Part shown: one piece after another, positions 36,377 through 43,480 of the stretch
Layout of the letters: each line of letters starts with the position of its first letter
Numbering within the stretch: position 1 is the stretch's first letter
Assembly: GCA_007693595.1 (NCBI GenBank)
Contig: REDI01000085.1
Location: 1 to 54,544 of the forward strand
Origin: Deltaproteobacteria bacterium
GTDB lineage: Bacteria; Myxococcota_A; UBA796; GCA-2862545
Reading direction: 5' to 3'
DNA length: 54,544 bases
Notes under the pieces: generated by a model
Told to the model about the DNA's origin: nothing
Database searches by the model: none
What the model saw: the letters and a program-made list of their open reading frames with translations, nothing else
Position numbers and translations under genes: made by a program

Positions 36377-36445
36377 CCCGGCTCGTCGAGGAGCGGGGAG
36401 CGTATTAGCGTAGTGGTACGATCGCTTGTGCCCCCGGAGCCCGCT

Positions 36446-37471
36446 ATGACTCAAGCCTACGTCCAGGCCATGTCCTGCCTGCTGCACGATGACCCGCTCC
36501 CCCCGGCGACGGCCTCGGCGCTCGTCCACGCCATGATGCGGGGGGAGCTGCCGCCCTCCCAGACAGCCGCCATCCTCACAGGCTTGGCAGCCCGCGGAGT
36601 GACCGACGAAGAGCTTGCGGCGATGGCTCTGGCCATGCGGGCCCACATGGTCCCAGTACGCGCTGAGGGTCCGCTCATCGACACCTGTGGTACCGGGGGG
36701 TCCGGGCTGTCGACCGCCAACACTTCAACCATGGCGGCCTTCGTCGTCGCGGGAGCAGGGGGGCGGGTCGCCAAGCACGGGAACCGGGCGAGCTCCGGAA
36801 CGTGCGGGAGCTCCGACCTGCTCGAAGCGGCAGGGCTGAGGCTACAGGTGCCCCCCGAACGCGCGAGCGAGCTCCTCGACGCCGTGGGGCTGGCCTTCTT
36901 GTTCGCCCCCGCCTACCATCCCGCCGTTCGCCACGTCGGCCTCGTTCGCAAGGAGCTGGGTTTTCGAACCGTTTTCAACCTCCTGGGCCCGCTGTGCAAC
37001 CCCGCGGGCGCGACCCTGCAGGTCATCGGAGTGAGCGACGCGGCGGCCGCGCCTTTGATCGCGCGCGCCTTGGCCCGGCTGGGGAGCGAGCGCGTCATGG
37101 TGGTCCGTGGCGAGGACGGCCTCGATGAGATCACCCTCACCGGCCCCACCCGGACCTGGACGCTGCTCGGGGGCGAGATCGTCGAGGGGGAGATCGTGCC
37201 GGAGTCCCTCGGGCTCGCCCGGTGTGATCCCGAGGAGCTCCGAGGCGGAGACGTTACGACCAACCTTCGGATCTTCCATGAGGTGCTCCAAGGAATGACC
37301 GAGAGCCCCCACGCCCGGCTCGTTCTCCTCAACGCTGCCGCCGCCCTACACACCGCTGGACTGGCCGCCGATCTGCGCGAGGGCCTGTCCGCAGCCACCG
37401 AGAGCCTGCGGGGCGGTCACGCTCGTAGGGTCTTCGAGCGCTATCACGAGCGCGCCGGCTCACCCCCCTGA
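36446..37471 (+). CDS. trpD: Anthranilate phosphoribosyltransferase
   Basis: 341 residues, normal length. PRPP- and anthranilate-binding motifs are intact: DTCGTGGSG (79-87), NTST, KHGNRASSGTCGSSDLLEA (110-128), RTVFNLLGPLCNPA and GEDGLDEIT. It transfers the phosphoribosyl group of PRPP to anthranilate, the second step of tryptophan synthesis. GGAG precedes the ATG at 36446. A TACGAT box at 36417 could be its -10, but no good -35 accompanies it. It is separated from trpC by two GHKL ATPase genes, and trpE and trpG are not in the window. Confidence 0.95.
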   Translation: MTQAYVQAMSCLLHDDPLPPATASALVHAMMRGELPPSQTAAILTGLAARGVTDEELAAMALAMRAHMVPVRAEGPLIDTCGTGGSGLSTANTSTMAAFVVAGAGGRVAKHGNRASSGTCGSSDLLEAAGLRLQVPPERASELLDAVGLAFLFAPAYHPAVRHVGLVRKELGFRTVFNLLGPLCNPAGATLQVIGVSDAAAAPLIARALARLGSERVMVVRGEDGLDEITLTGPTRTWTLLGGEIVEGEIVPESLGLARCDPEELRGGDVTTNLRIFHEVLQGMTESPHARLVLLNAAAALHTAGLAADLREGLSAATESLRGGHARRVFERYHERAGSPP

Positions 37472-37598: not shown

Positions 37599-39314
37599 AT
37601 GCCTCCCACCCCTCGTCCGACGCTGGCGGATCGCGCCCTTGAGAACCTTGTTCACCAGTTCGCACGCCCGATGGACGCGCTGCGAGAGCTGGTCCAGAAC
37701 GCGCTGGACTCCGGCTCTCCTCGGGTCGACGTTCGGATCGGCGCGGCCCCCCTCCCCCAAGACGCCTCCAAGGCGCTGATCACCCTTGGGATCCACGACA
37801 CCGGCGAGGGGATGGACGAGCAGATCATCGACACGCGGCTGACCCGGCTCTTCGCCTCCGACAAGGCTGGGGATCTCACGCGCATCGGTCGATTCGGCAT
37901 CGGCTTCTCGAGCATCTTCGCGCTGGAGCCCCTGGCCGTCCTCGTTCAGACCGGCCGGCTCGGAGAGTCGTGGGAGCTGCTCTTCTATCCTGACCGTGGC
38001 TTCGACAAGGTGCGGCTAGACGAACCCCTCACCGGCACTCGGATCACGCTCTTCCTCAAGAAGCGCGTCGACGAGATCGAGCCCTTTCTTCACGAGGTCC
38101 GCGAGACGCTGATCCACTGGTGCGGCTACAGCGATCGTCCAATCCGATTCTTCGACCAGACCCGCCCCTCCACGAGCCCCTCCACGGCGAGCGACGATCC
38201 GTTCCAGATCGGCGATCCCGAGGAGTCCTACGAGCTGCTCAACCGCCCCTTCGCCTTACCCGATGCCCTGAGCACCTACGAGGTCCAGACCGCTCGCGCC
38301 CACCTCCTCGTCGGGGTGAGCGAGCAGCCCCACATCACCTTCCTGGGCGGCGGGCTGACCCTCGCGACCAGCGAGCGCCACGAAGTTCTTGGTCCCTACG
38401 CCGATTCACTTCGGGGCCTCTCCCTGATCGTGCGCGCCGACGGCTTGGAGCAGACCCTCACCCGGTGCGGGGTGATGCACACCACCCACTTCGCGGACGT
38501 CATGGACGAGGTCGTCGAGGCAGCGGGCACCTTTCGGGCACAGCTTCTGACCGAGGTCTCCGAGGCCTCCGAGCTCGGCGGGGATCTCTCCCGCTGGTTC
38601 TCACCCTTGCGCTACCTGGTCCGCGCGGCTCCCGGACGCGGTGAGGCGTGGAGACAGATCTGTTCTATCCCCCTCTTTCCCGGCCATGACCGCCTGATCT
38701 CAGCTCTCGAGCTGGAGCGGCAGCGAGGTCGGGCAGGGGGCCTCTTGCTGCACCCCGGCGACGGCCCCCTCGCCGACGCGCTGGACGCGGAAGGCTACGT
38801 GCAGGTGCGGGCCACTCCCGATGCCCTCGAGCTCCTCTACGAGCTACACCGCCCGACCTTCGGGCAGGGGCGCCCCCCCCGATCCGAGCTCTTCGTGCGC
38901 GCGGACGAGCGCTTCGCCTTACCCCAGACCCTCGATCTGGCGTCCCTACCCCCGGCGGAGAGCGCGCTCTTCCAGAGCTGCCAGGGGACCGTCTCGGTCG
39001 CCACCCAAGACAGGGTCTTCCTGACCTTCGGACGGGTCGCCTCCACGGGGCCCCGAACCCCGCTGGTCCTGCGAGGCGCGCGAGGAGGGCGGCTCTTCGC
39101 GGTGGTCGAGCCCGGCCTCTTTGGCGCCATGTGGGAGTGGGTGACCCGCCGCACCCTCCTGGTCAACGTCGACCACCCCCTCGCGCAGCGCGCTGCGATC
39201 GCGGCCTGGTCGACACCTCGAGCGGCCAGCCTCGCCCTCGCCTACGCCGTGCTCCAACAAGACCCCGACCATCATGACGCCTTGAACGACATTCTCAACC
39301 TGGGGGCCTCGTGA
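37599..39314 (+). CDS. Hsp90-like GHKL ATPase
   Basis: 571 residues. The N-terminal ATPase domain has all Bergerat-fold motifs in Hsp90 style: N-box E30-LVQ-N34-ALD, G1 box HDTGEGM (66-72, Asp67), and G2 box RIGRFGIGFSSIF (95-107). It continues with beta-rich middle-domain-like sequence (about 115-330) and a C-terminal half I do not recognise. It lacks the length and C-terminal dimerisation part of HtpG and has no histidine-kinase H-box. GGAG precedes the ATG. It overlaps the next gene by 4 bases and sits between trpD and trpC. I infer an ATP-driven clamp working with its 1067-residue neighbour. Confidence 0.8.
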   Translation: MPPTPRPTLADRALENLVHQFARPMDALRELVQNALDSGSPRVDVRIGAAPLPQDASKALITLGIHDTGEGMDEQIIDTRLTRLFASDKAGDLTRIGRFGIGFSSIFALEPLAVLVQTGRLGESWELLFYPDRGFDKVRLDEPLTGTRITLFLKKRVDEIEPFLHEVRETLIHWCGYSDRPIRFFDQTRPSTSPSTASDDPFQIGDPEESYELLNRPFALPDALSTYEVQTARAHLLVGVSEQPHITFLGGGLTLATSERHEVLGPYADSLRGLSLIVRADGLEQTLTRCGVMHTTHFADVMDEVVEAAGTFRAQLLTEVSEASELGGDLSRWFSPLRYLVRAAPGRGEAWRQICSIPLFPGHDRLISALELERQRGRAGGLLLHPGDGPLADALDAEGYVQVRATPDALELLYELHRPTFGQGRPPRSELFVRADERFALPQTLDLASLPPAESALFQSCQGTVSVATQDRVFLTFGRVASTGPRTPLVLRGARGGRLFAVVEPGLFGAMWEWVTRRTLLVNVDHPLAQRAAIAAWSTPRAASLALAYAVLQQDPDHHDALNDILNLGAS

Positions 39315-42300
39315 ACCACGACGAGATCGCCGCCCTGATCGCTCCGCACCGTCGACCCGGCACCTTCGTGGAGCGCCGTCGATTCAGCCTGGACCGCGAC
39401 CGCGCCATCGCCAAGATGCGAGCCTTCAGCCTCGCGGATCCCACCACCGCCATCCTGGAGCTGATCCAGGCGGCGAACCTGACCGGGGCCAAGGCCCTCG
39501 CCATCGACACCCAAGACACGGAGCTCTCGATCGCCTGGACCGGGGGCACCTCCATACCTCCCGAGATCCTCGCCAACCTGCTCGACGCGCTCTTCGAAGA
39601 CCAGAGGGACGTCGAGCGTCGCGGATACCATCAGGTCGCCGTCGGAGTGAACGCCATGCTCCAGCTCGAGCCCACCTCGATGCGGGTCGAGAGCGGTGAC
39701 GGGACGCTTGAGGGCAGCTCGTGGCTCAGCCTCGACGCCGACGTTCTGACCCAGAGCGGGCCCAGCGAGCAGGCCGTCGAGGGCACGGCGCTCCTGGTCC
39801 GGTTTGCGAGCGCACGCGAAGCTCGCCAAGCGTGCAACGCCTCGATCATCGCGCACCGGGCCGCCCTCTCTCGCGCCACCATCTCGATCGACGGCTACAC
39901 CGCCAACCGGATGTGTCCCGTCACGCTCCAAATGTCCGAGAACGCCGAGCGTTTCGAGGTCATCGAGCTACCGGGCGTACGGGGATCGCTCTGCGTCGGA
40001 CCTGGGATCCACACCACGACCTTCGCGATAGGCGGCGTTCACATCACCTCCAAATCGATCTTCGGAGGTCGCGTGGGGGGTGTCGTGATCGACGACCGCC
40101 TCCGAAAGACAGCCGATATGTCGGACATCGTGGAAGATGATCGATTCCTGCAGCTCCTTGAGGATCTCGAGCCGATGGTCGTCCGCTTGATCGGGAGCGG
40201 CGCACCCCCCGCCTGGAGCGACCCAGAAGGATCACGTCCGAGCGAGACGCTCTCAGAGCTGCCAGCACGCATCCCGCAGGTGGCGCCGCGGGCACCGCTG
40301 ATGCGTCACGTCCTGGCCCGATTGCCTCCTGACGAGCCGATCTTCTGGGTTCTCCCGGAGTCCTCAAGCTCCCTTATCGAAGCCTGCGATCCGCTCACCC
40401 TGCCCTTTCGCGTCTTGCGATTAACTCCGGAGCAAGCAACTCTAGCGCTCGAGGACGCCCCTCAGCTCGTCCAGCTCCAGAGCCCGGCCGACATCGGCTT
40501 CGTTCAGCGGATCGCGGAGCGCTCCCAGCGATGGATCTCCACCGAGATCCGTGGCGAAGCGCTGTCTCGGGCCCTGGGCTCTCCCACCGAAGGCGTCCTC
40601 ACCGTCCGGCTACACACCGAGGGGGCTGATCCCAAGTGGGACGCCTCAGGTCGCGCCGACGGCCTCCCGACGCTGGTCATGATCGACGACAAGCCCAGGC
40701 ACCTCTTGCGTCTGCCCTCGCGCATTCCGCATGTAAGCGCGATCCTTGCCCTTTTCAAAGACGAGCTGAAGCGACTCTCGAGCGAAGTGGTGCTCACCAG
40801 CCTGTCCACCGCGATCCGCGACGTCCTTCCCTCGCTGCTCCGTCGTGCCCTGGCGGGTGGCGGCCAGAGCGTAGAGGTCGCCCGACACCTCCTCGAGACC
40901 TTCGCCTCTCCCGTCGTCCGCCGAGGAGCCGAGGGTCGGCTGCACCTCCAGGCCCACCTCCCTTCCGCCTGGGGTGAGGACCATGAGACGCTGCTCGACC
41001 TCCCGCTCGCTCTCACCCGAGCAGGCCCGTTGACCCTGCGGCGCCTGATCCAGGTCCAGGGCACGCGCCGAGTGTTCGATCTTCTCGACCCCGGCGAAGC
41101 TCTACCTCTGAGGCCCTTGGAGGATCGGTTCGGCCTCGGGCACATACGGAACCCAGGTTCCGCGAGGGACCCGCTCTTCATGTTCGGCCACCGCAACGGT
41201 CGGTGGCAGCCCTTCCACGCGGAAAGCGAGCTCCCCTCCTTCGACGAGGCCTACGTCCTTGAGGCCCAGGTCGAGCCCACGAAGGCCCCCGAGGGCTGGG
41301 TTGAACACCCGACCTCCATCCCCTTCCTCACCCACTGGGCCCAGAGCGGCTCCCTGCCGGACCCCGATCATGGCAAGCACCGCCTGGCGCTACACCTCGA
41401 CGAACGGCTGAGGGTCCAGCCTCCTGAGGGCGCGACGATCTTGGTGACGGTCCGGTGCGAGCTGGCCAGGCTCGGCTTCGCGACCGATGCGCTGCGCTTG
41501 GTGGACCAAGGCGGGCACGTCGTCTCCCTGTCCGAGGCGATGTCCGAGGGGCGCCACCGCTTCGCCCTCCGCGGCGGCCCCCGTGTCGAGCGAGATCGAC
41601 TGATCGTCCTACCCTTCCTCGCGCTCCGGGCCTTGGACCAGCTCAGCCACAACCGAGGAGCTGGGCCTCTTCCGATGGCCGACGCCCAGCTCCTCGGTGG
41701 TGGCTCCCTGCTGGGTTCGCCCCGGTGGCTCGTGCGTCGCGAGGTCGACTCCGACGGACTGACGGGCTTTTTGGCGCTGGCCTTCGATCCCTTGGTGCGA
41801 TCCGGCGTGATGGTGGACACCTCACACAGCCTCCACCTGCTGACCGCTCCGTGCCTCGGGGCTGCATGTACGGGTCAGATCCGGCTGAAGGGCCGCAACA
41901 ACCTGCACCCACTCCAGCTTCAGCGACTTCGGTCCACGACGCGCATGCTGTACCGCGACCTCCTCCCCCTCCTCGACGAGACCGGCCCGCGCGGCGAGGC
42001 CGCGCGACGCGACGCCGCTCGCTTCGTGCTCTCGCAGGACGACCCCCTCGACGGCTTCACCGAGAACCTCGCAGCCTCCATCTCGCTCCCAAAGCACGAT
42101 CTGACCTTGAAGGGCTGGCTCGACCTCCATCCCGAAGACCGCCCGGCCCTGCCCGATTCGTGGCGGGTCACGACCGACGACACGCCCTCGTCGACCAAGC
42201 CAAGTGACCTGCTCTCCTCCCTCGTCGAGCCAATCTCCCATTACTTGAGCCTGCAGCTCAAGGAGCCGCTCCGTTTTCACCCTGAGGCGCACGCGCGCAA

Positions 42301-42514
42301 GACCTTCTACGCCCGCGACATCGGCACGAGGACGGTCAAGCTCCTGGTTCCAGCCACCCAGCTGACGCGCCTCGAGACCACCGAAGACCCCCACACTCAG
42401 CGCTTCGTGATGCGGCTGCGCGCCCTCGACACGATCATCCAAGACCTCGGGCTGACGATCGACCGCGCCGAGGCTGCGATCTCGCTGCTCTCCACCGAGG
42501 GAGACTCGAGGTAG
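39311..42514 (+). CDS. Large protein with a degenerate GHKL (Hsp90-like) domain
   Basis: 1067 residues. The N-terminus aligns by eye with an Hsp90/sacsin-type ATPase: TTAILELIQAANLTGAKALAI (45-65), strand ELSIAWTGG (71-79), and YHQVAVGVNAML (106-117). The key residues are lost, however. The metal-binding Asn of the N-box (E50+4) is Ala54, and the Asp of the DxGxG box is replaced in AWTGG. The remaining 900 residues are mixed alpha/beta with no motif I recognise and no membrane segment. It is translationally coupled (ATGA) to the complete GHKL ATPase. I infer a catalytically silent partner or substrate-recognition subunit. Confidence 0.7.
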   Translation: MNHDEIAALIAPHRRPGTFVERRRFSLDRDRAIAKMRAFSLADPTTAILELIQAANLTGAKALAIDTQDTELSIAWTGGTSIPPEILANLLDALFEDQRDVERRGYHQVAVGVNAMLQLEPTSMRVESGDGTLEGSSWLSLDADVLTQSGPSEQAVEGTALLVRFASAREARQACNASIIAHRAALSRATISIDGYTANRMCPVTLQMSENAERFEVIELPGVRGSLCVGPGIHTTTFAIGGVHITSKSIFGGRVGGVVIDDRLRKTADMSDIVEDDRFLQLLEDLEPMVVRLIGSGAPPAWSDPEGSRPSETLSELPARIPQVAPRAPLMRHVLARLPPDEPIFWVLPESSSSLIEACDPLTLPFRVLRLTPEQATLALEDAPQLVQLQSPADIGFVQRIAERSQRWISTEIRGEALSRALGSPTEGVLTVRLHTEGADPKWDASGRADGLPTLVMIDDKPRHLLRLPSRIPHVSAILALFKDELKRLSSEVVLTSLSTAIRDVLPSLLRRALAGGGQSVEVARHLLETFASPVVRRGAEGRLHLQAHLPSAWGEDHETLLDLPLALTRAGPLTLRRLIQVQGTRRVFDLLDPGEALPLRPLEDRFGLGHIRNPGSARDPLFMFGHRNGRWQPFHAESELPSFDEAYVLEAQVEPTKAPEGWVEHPTSIPFLTHWAQSGSLPDPDHGKHRLALHLDERLRVQPPEGATILVTVRCELARLGFATDALRLVDQGGHVVSLSEAMSEGRHRFALRGGPRVERDRLIVLPFLALRALDQLSHNRGAGPLPMADAQLLGGGSLLGSPRWLVRREVDSDGLTGFLALAFDPLVRSGVMVDTSHSLHLLTAPCLGAACTGQIRLKGRNNLHPLQLQRLRSTTRMLYRDLLPLLDETGPRGEAARRDAARFVLSQDDPLDGFTENLAASISLPKHDLTLKGWLDLHPEDRPALPDSWRVTTDDTPSSTKPSDLLSSLVEPISHYLSLQLKEPLRFHPEAHARKTFYARDIGTRTVKLLVPATQLTRLETTEDPHTQRFVMRLRALDTIIQDLGLTIDRAEAAISLLSTEGDSR

Positions 42515-42712: not shown

Positions 42713-43480
42713 ATGCTGAGGCTGCGCGAACCCCCCGGCGTCCTCGGCAAGATCGTGGCCCGAACGGTGCGCGAACTCCCCGAAGGCGCACCCGGTCCGC
42801 GCCGCGCCTCGTCGCCCAGACCCTTCGCCGAGGCCCTGCGCGCCCCCGGCCTCTCGCTGATCGCCGAGCTCAAGCCCCGGTCCCCCAGCGAGGGGGACCT
42901 TCGCCCCAGCGTGAGCCCCGAAGACGTCGCCCCCGCCTATCGACACGCTGCGGCGATCTCGGTGCTCATCGATGGGCCTTCCTTCGGGGGCAGCCTCGAC
43001 CTCTTGGCGCGGATGCGGAGCCTCGTCGACCGGCCGGTGCTGGCCAAGGGCTTCTTCATCAGCGAGGTCCAGGTGCGGCAGGCCTGGTCTGCCGGAGCCG
43101 ACGCCGTGCTGCTGATGGCCTCGATCCTGCCGCCGCCGAGCCTTGAACACCTGCTCGGTCTCGCGACGGATCTGGGCCTGGGAGCGCTGGTCGAGGCCCA
43201 CGACGCCCGCGAGCTCGAGGAGGTCCTCGCGAGCGGTGCCGAAGTGATCGGGGTAAACAGTAGGGATCTGACCCGCTTGAGCATCGATCTGGGACGGGCC
43301 GCCACCCTGCTCGCGACGGTGCCGACCAACCGCGTGCGGGTGGCCGAGAGCGGCCTGCACACCCGCGCCGACGTCGATCGGATCCGCGGCGTGGCCGACG
43401 CGGCGCTCATCGGCACTGCGCTGATGACCTCGCCCGACCCCGCCGCGCGCATCGCGGAGCTGGGGCTCCGGTCATGCTGA
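42713..43480 (+). CDS. trpC: Indole-3-glycerol phosphate synthase
   Basis: 255 residues. Barrel motifs: [13 protein letters not shown] with Lys54, [30 protein letters not shown] with catalytic Lys112, [31 protein letters not shown], and AESGL. It closes carboxyphenylaminodeoxyribulose phosphate to indole glycerol phosphate. The usual KDF is KGF (Gly113), a small deviation that leaves the catalytic lysine in place. It overlaps trpF by 7 bases. First gene of the compact plus-strand Trp/aromatic unit. Confidence 0.95.

Follow-up and report, generated by a model that had tools for sequence, protein, structure and literature searches.

A conserved gene pair of Myxococcota joins an intact Hsp90-like ATPase to a putative long-established pseudo-ATPase, with a fast-diverging duplicate in a trp cluster

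Why should two overlapping genes, each beginning with an Hsp90-like nucleotide-binding domain, lie between trpD and trpC, and what might their products do together when the ATP site of the second is degenerate? The question is raised by a stretch of 54,544 nucleotides (hereafter the window) from contig REDI01000085.1 of a Deltaproteobacteria bacterium. We refer to the two genes as A (571 aa) and B (1067 aa). An earlier note, made from the letters of the window alone, had described them as an active/silent pair inserted as a unit, possibly a chaperone-like or conflict (defence) system. The coordinates, strand, lengths and four-base overlap that it gave, as well as the location within the trp cluster, agree with the sequence (Table 1); the GTG start codon of B sits within the TCG-TGA end of A. 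It had also placed a hairpin 3' of the pair, but folding there is no stronger than in shuffled sequence (z 0.39), and a search for a terminator-like site after the pair found none.

Table 1. Positions in the window of the A-B gene pair, its domains and its flanking genes
Feature	Position	Strand	Basis
Gene A, GHKL/Hsp90-like ATPase, intact ATP site	37599..39314	+	Pfam, 21-row alignment, N-domain structure match, HtpG profile alignment
A, predicted Bergerat-fold ATPase domain, ~residues 1-160; E30, N34, D67, G69, G71, GxxGxG 97-102, G146-T147	37599..38078	+	alignments and model
A, Hsp90 middle-like domain, ~residues 180-320; candidate catalytic Arg R289	38136..38558	+	alignment, HtpG profile
A, C-terminal part, ~residues 330-571; no detectable relative	38586..39311	+	profile comparison
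GTGA, four bases shared by the A stop and the B start; kept in most relatives	39311..39314	+	sequence, relatives' loci
Gene B, pseudo-GHKL N-terminus, 1067 aa	39311..42514	+	alignments; profile vs A
B, degenerate Bergerat-fold domain, ~residues 25-165; E50, A54, AWTGG	39383..39805	+	alignment; profile vs A
B, degenerate Hsp90 middle-like domain, ~residues 166-295; LRKTADMSDIV at 264-274	39806..40195	+	profile vs A; long-B comparison
B, C-terminal region, ~750 residues; no relative outside family, no internal repeat detected	40241..42511	+	sequence and profile searches
trpD, upstream flank	36413..37471	+	sequence and its neighbours
trpC, downstream flank	42713..43480	+	sequence; family comparison

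Gene A has the motifs of a working ATPase. Its product matches the Pfam models HATPase_c_3 (9.6e-8) and HATPase_c (7.1e-7), both over the curated cut-off, and E30, N34, D67, G69, G71 and the glycines of G97-x-x-G100-x-G102 are invariant in a 21-row alignment. The window copy has these motifs, and G146-T147 too, as do 38-40 of 41 relatives, in line with the earlier observation that A keeps E30/N34, the Asp of DTGEG and the GxxGxG box. The best PDB sequences for a profile of A are Hsp90 N domains (3.5e-8), and its top matches are Hsp90. In a predicted model (pLDDT 42.5 overall, about 56-76 in the N domain), the N domain is matched by GRP94/HtpG (Z 14) and by the N domains of PMS2 (Z 13.5), and Foldseek ranks Hsp90/TRAP1 N+middle chains first; on this model, the N domain of A is predicted to adopt the Bergerat fold. 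Apart from the HATPase_c models, A matches in Pfam only a sacsin model that stays under its cut-off (PF25794, 26.8 vs 32.8 bits), as does the sacsin model of NCBIfam (NF047352, 43.8 vs 50 bits), while the MutL model TIGR00585 reaches 26 bits against a cut-off of 180, over the ATPase domain only.

The resemblance of A to Hsp90 extends beyond the ATP site. The earlier note held that, outside the N-terminal domain, neither protein looks like HtpG, which is wrong for A: its profile aligns with the HtpG of its own genome, a separate and normal protein encoded on contig C46, over 345 columns (98.5%, E 1.6e-15) that span the N and middle domains. The segment LEHTLTRDNV of A falls opposite ISLNVSREMV of HtpG, and because R289 is thereby aligned with the arginine of LNVSRE, we regard it as a candidate Hsp90-type catalytic arginine; it is kept in 39 of the 39 relatives that have a residue at this position. 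Thus, at the level of sequence, A resembles HtpG through its N and middle domains, the putative catalytic arginine included. It has these elements in the same order as Hsp90/HtpG (PF00183), but the C-terminal parts differ: that of A matches the HtpG profile with a probability of only 6.5%, no recognised Hsp90 C-terminal dimerisation domain was found by profile comparison, and in this genome PF00183 matches the HtpG on C46 and not A. A further difference is the pseudo-copy B as a constant neighbour.

Gene B appears to derive from the same kind of protein. When a profile built from 40 diverse B N-termini was compared with that of A (hhalign), the two matched at 98.5% (E 1.8e-15), collinear across 263 columns, whereas 59 column shuffles and a reversed profile gave at most 0.9%. 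An earlier comparison with small profiles had reached 54% only, and it was the deeper alignment with its controls that decided homology. The first ~310 residues of B are collinear with the ATPase and middle domains of A, so the description of B as starting with an Hsp90-like nucleotide-binding-type domain is sustained, its N-terminus being homologous by sequence profile to a Bergerat-fold protein; the denial of any HtpG likeness in the rest of its length fails as far as residue ~295, given the profile match with A and the middle-domain loop of long B proteins. These long B proteins of other families (about 1700-1900 aa) carry LPTNASRS, a loop of the Hsp90 middle domain, and the corresponding LPxNxSRxxV-type loop reads LRKTADxSDIV in B proteins of the window type. 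Because B is homologous to A and the long B proteins carry this loop, B may be traced to an Hsp90-like N+middle unit. The fold of B is taken from these sequence profiles; a predicted model built with 2 sequences (pLDDT 33.7) was not used.

Within this shared framework, the ATP site of B is degenerate. E50 is kept in all 41 readable relatives. At position 54, however, where a functional site would have Asn, none of the relatives has it (Ala in 36/41, Gly, Ser or Val in the remainder), and at position 76 none has Asp (Trp, Tyr or Phe in 40/42, Ala once and Cys once). The window copy has A54 and reads AWTGG in place of DxGxG at residues 75-79, just as the earlier note stated, and the losses extend to every relative read. 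Since both the Asn and the Asp are missing throughout, B is best read as a long-established pseudo-ATPase, in which ATP hydrolysis would have been lost long ago and not by recent decay. The remainder of the protein is without recognisable kin: B has no match in Pfam, NCBIfam or PDB sequences, and its family members have no meaningful match either; the B tail shows no detectable similarity to the A tail, C or D (see below) and no internal repeats. At one locus (L053:2400-5852, genome G042), B is broken by an in-frame TAA, and other A and B fragments occur in that genome; this represents either an assembly error or decay.

Across Myxococcota the pair has been conserved, in most cases together with its four-base overlap. 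B is present in 61 of 331 genomes taken from the phylum, an assignment that rests on the named relatives found, two 'Myxococcales bacterium' MAG contigs, together with kinship labels. At every locus with both ends readable, A and B are adjacent, mostly overlapping by four bases; the refuting case named in the earlier note, that the two genes rarely occur together elsewhere, did not come true. Two further gene families lie beside the pair: C, with proteins of about 340 aa and coiled-coil character, and D, with proteins of about 310 aa; both lack a match in Pfam and PDB sequences. Within the order to which the window belongs, the arrangement is C>D> <B<A (L043, L045, L046, L051, L053, L056 and L058), as it also is at L109, and the four genes run co-directionally as C-D-A-B at L097 and L098 and at the divergent loci L060 and L051, with gene overlaps at each C-D-A-B junction of L060. 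Among the 37 genomes with a strong B match, C occurs in 32 and D in 35, counts that ignore phylogeny, and in several of these genomes C-D is placed away from A-B. None of the A, B, C and D proteins checked showed a transmembrane-like stretch. C-D-A-B is a previously undescribed module of Myxococcota; no description of the A-B pair was found in a literature search covering few subscription journals.

The composition of the module varies. C or D was not found beside the pair in several lineages, and neither was found next to the long-B loci of other families, so that with most long B types C and D appear to be missing or to escape detection; for these reasons, C and D are not strictly required. 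At six loci (L101, L102, L104, L105, L107 and L108), a long B (about 1700-1900 aa) with an LPTNASRS-type loop stands with A alone and no recognisable C or D. The divergent four-gene C-D-A-B operons (L060:526-6576 and L051:173-9808) have a different, longer B type, and the L051 genome holds both B types within one 20-kb stretch. Elsewhere, one A is followed by three tandem B genes (L096:5657-18355) or by two (L094:7264-15530). Tandem Bs beside a single A suggest that B sets specificity, as a partner or specificity subunit.

How, then, did the pair come to lie in the trp cluster? The genome of the window also holds a complete C-D/B-A module on contig C22 (L043:2131-4028 and L043:5143-10175), and in trees the window A and window B are each sister to their C22 counterparts with 100% support, which makes the C22 module the probable parent. 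A genome of the same genus (G001) has one strong copy only. The terminal branches of the window copies are long: 1.17 vs 0.52 for A (2.25x) and 1.75 vs 0.72 for B (2.4x), and A and B tip branches correlate at r 0.93, a value that partly reflects shared time and is uncorrected for phylogeny. From the sister relationships and the long branches, the window pair is a fast-diverging unit in which A and B were duplicated together, but C and D were not. A second lineage with long A and B branches, G013 (L058:5847-10383), has C and D genes. The gap between trpD and trpC is below 200 bp in 9 of the 11 family members with both genes, and the A-B pairs of relatives are located elsewhere, which argues that the pair was inserted into this junction; together with the co-duplication, this upholds the proposal that A and B were acquired as a unit. 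In one family member (G020, L113:1070-9791), different genes are inserted between trpD and trpC, and the junction thus takes insertions more than once. A functional role for the trp location was considered and rejected on these three grounds, and the link of the pair to tryptophan synthesis is incidental.

A duplicate of this kind could simply be a decaying spare without function, with the complete C22 module alone doing the work. The long branches of both genes would fit, as would the presence of C and D at C22 only in this genome and the loss of 20/113 otherwise invariant positions in A and 47/131 in B, among them H285, D290 and D295 of the loop around R289 in A. We nevertheless consider this unlikely, since both frames are intact across 1638 codons with coding-type GC3 (0.85 and 0.83), every residue of the ATP site is present, the overlap is preserved, and otherwise invariant residues are kept (93/113 in A, 84/131 in B) far above the match at variable sites (32% and 28%). 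The window copy is evolving 2-2.5 times faster but, by this last measure, is still constrained.

The earlier note also raised the possibility of a conflict or defence system. On this reading, which would liken the pair to RIIA-like, TmtA or GHKL-Shedu proteins, A would be a GHKL switch and the variable tail of B would sense or attack invaders. Precedents exist among defence and counter-defence proteins: in phage RIIA, TmtA and VcSduA, a GHKL domain at the N-terminus is followed by a C-terminal region that varies (PMC7824862, PMC12137116), and in VcSduA GHKL domains control defence nucleases (PMC12137116). The patchy spread of the pair (61/331 genomes), the fast evolution of B and a match of PADLOC TmtA models to the A ATPase domain (3e-8) are all compatible with this. 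However, the likeness to RIIA, TmtA and VcSduA is limited to the type of ATPase domain; B has no PADLOC match, no nuclease or toxin domain was found in B or its relatives, and, in contrast to those systems, the pair has a constant pseudo-GHKL partner and is not mobile. Its neighbours are mostly ordinary and differ among genomes, with scattered single PADLOC matches among 103 neighbours; no B match was found on plasmids or viral contigs and no A match at 80% coverage on phages, and the A and B trees broadly track taxonomy. A defence role is thus unsupported and, in our judgement, quite improbable. Of the active/silent two-component machine that was proposed, the architecture stands, in that the pair travels together with A intact and B degenerate, but the ordinary neighbours and the missing mobile-element signal lend no support to the defence role.

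It is similarly doubtful that what the A-B complex remodels is DNA or chromatin, as with MutL, MORC or topoisomerase VI, and not protein. In favour of this, A gives scores with the MutL and TopoVI-B models, its N domain shares its fold with those of the MutL/PMS2 and MORC GHKL ATPases (Z 13.5), and a coiled-coil partner such as C would fit an SMC-like arrangement. Yet the sequence profile of A favours Hsp90 (best PDB 3.5e-8), its middle-domain loop is of the Hsp90 type, and no MORC, endonuclease or other nuclease or DNA-binding domain was found. The Hsp90-type middle domain, and surroundings unlike those of a defence system, favour the remodelling of proteins. Very improbable, finally, is that A and B act separately and are paired by operon history only, given the strict pairing, an overlap conserved across divergent lineages, the common ancestry of their N+middle units, their parallel acceleration and the presence, at some loci, of several B genes next to one A.

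Taken at a probability of roughly 55%, our main reading is that A and B together make up an asymmetric Hsp90-like remodelling machine, each contributing one half, and that the window copy arose secondarily, by duplication from the full module. Hsp90 is normally a homodimer. In the mechanism that we infer, by contrast, the working form would be an A-B heteromer, probably a clamp, in which ATP turns over in the A half only. A would be the motor, binding and hydrolysing ATP through its GHKL N domain and an Hsp90-type middle domain with the putative catalytic arginine. B, derived from the same N+middle unit, would have lost ATP hydrolysis, and has its own tail of ~750 residues; its homologous half may provide a mating surface, and the tail may bind the client or target. 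The coiled-coil protein C and D, both predicted to be soluble, could serve as scaffold, adaptor or co-chaperone in the complete module. The window A-B is a second unit, specific to its lineage, that was copied from the C-D/A-B locus of the same genome and came to lie between trpD and trpC with neither C nor D. B, where multiplied beside a single A, would set specificity. A bolder version, which we put forward only tentatively, is that an obligate, half-dead Hsp90-like heterodimer is the core of a four-protein C-D-A-B chaperone machine, with one ATPase serving one to three giant, client-specifying pseudo-ATPases.

Among known proteins, sacsin offers a further parallel to this asymmetric machine. 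The N-terminal ATP-binding-like domain of sacsin (SACS, PF25794; NF047352) is the best NCBIfam match of A (2.7e-11, under the cut-off), and sacsin joins Hsp90-like N and middle regions, in repeats, with catalytic arginines (PMC9880540). Sacsin, however, is a single, very large eukaryotic polypeptide in which repeats are combined with DnaJ and HEPN domains (PMC3710099), whereas here there are two or more separate bacterial proteins, in which the sacsin repeats, DnaJ and HEPN were not found.

How far ATP hydrolysis in each half of Hsp90 matters is debated. With B dead phylum-wide, as its sequences suggest, the pair would be a natural experiment on the two halves, the job being permanently split between an active and a dead one. 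In the window copy, A and B can be seen to have been duplicated together and to diverge at a matching pace. Myxococcota is a phylum with multicellular and predatory members, and with B, C and D lacking Pfam or PDB sequence relatives, what may be a conserved machine of this phylum has so far gone unannotated.
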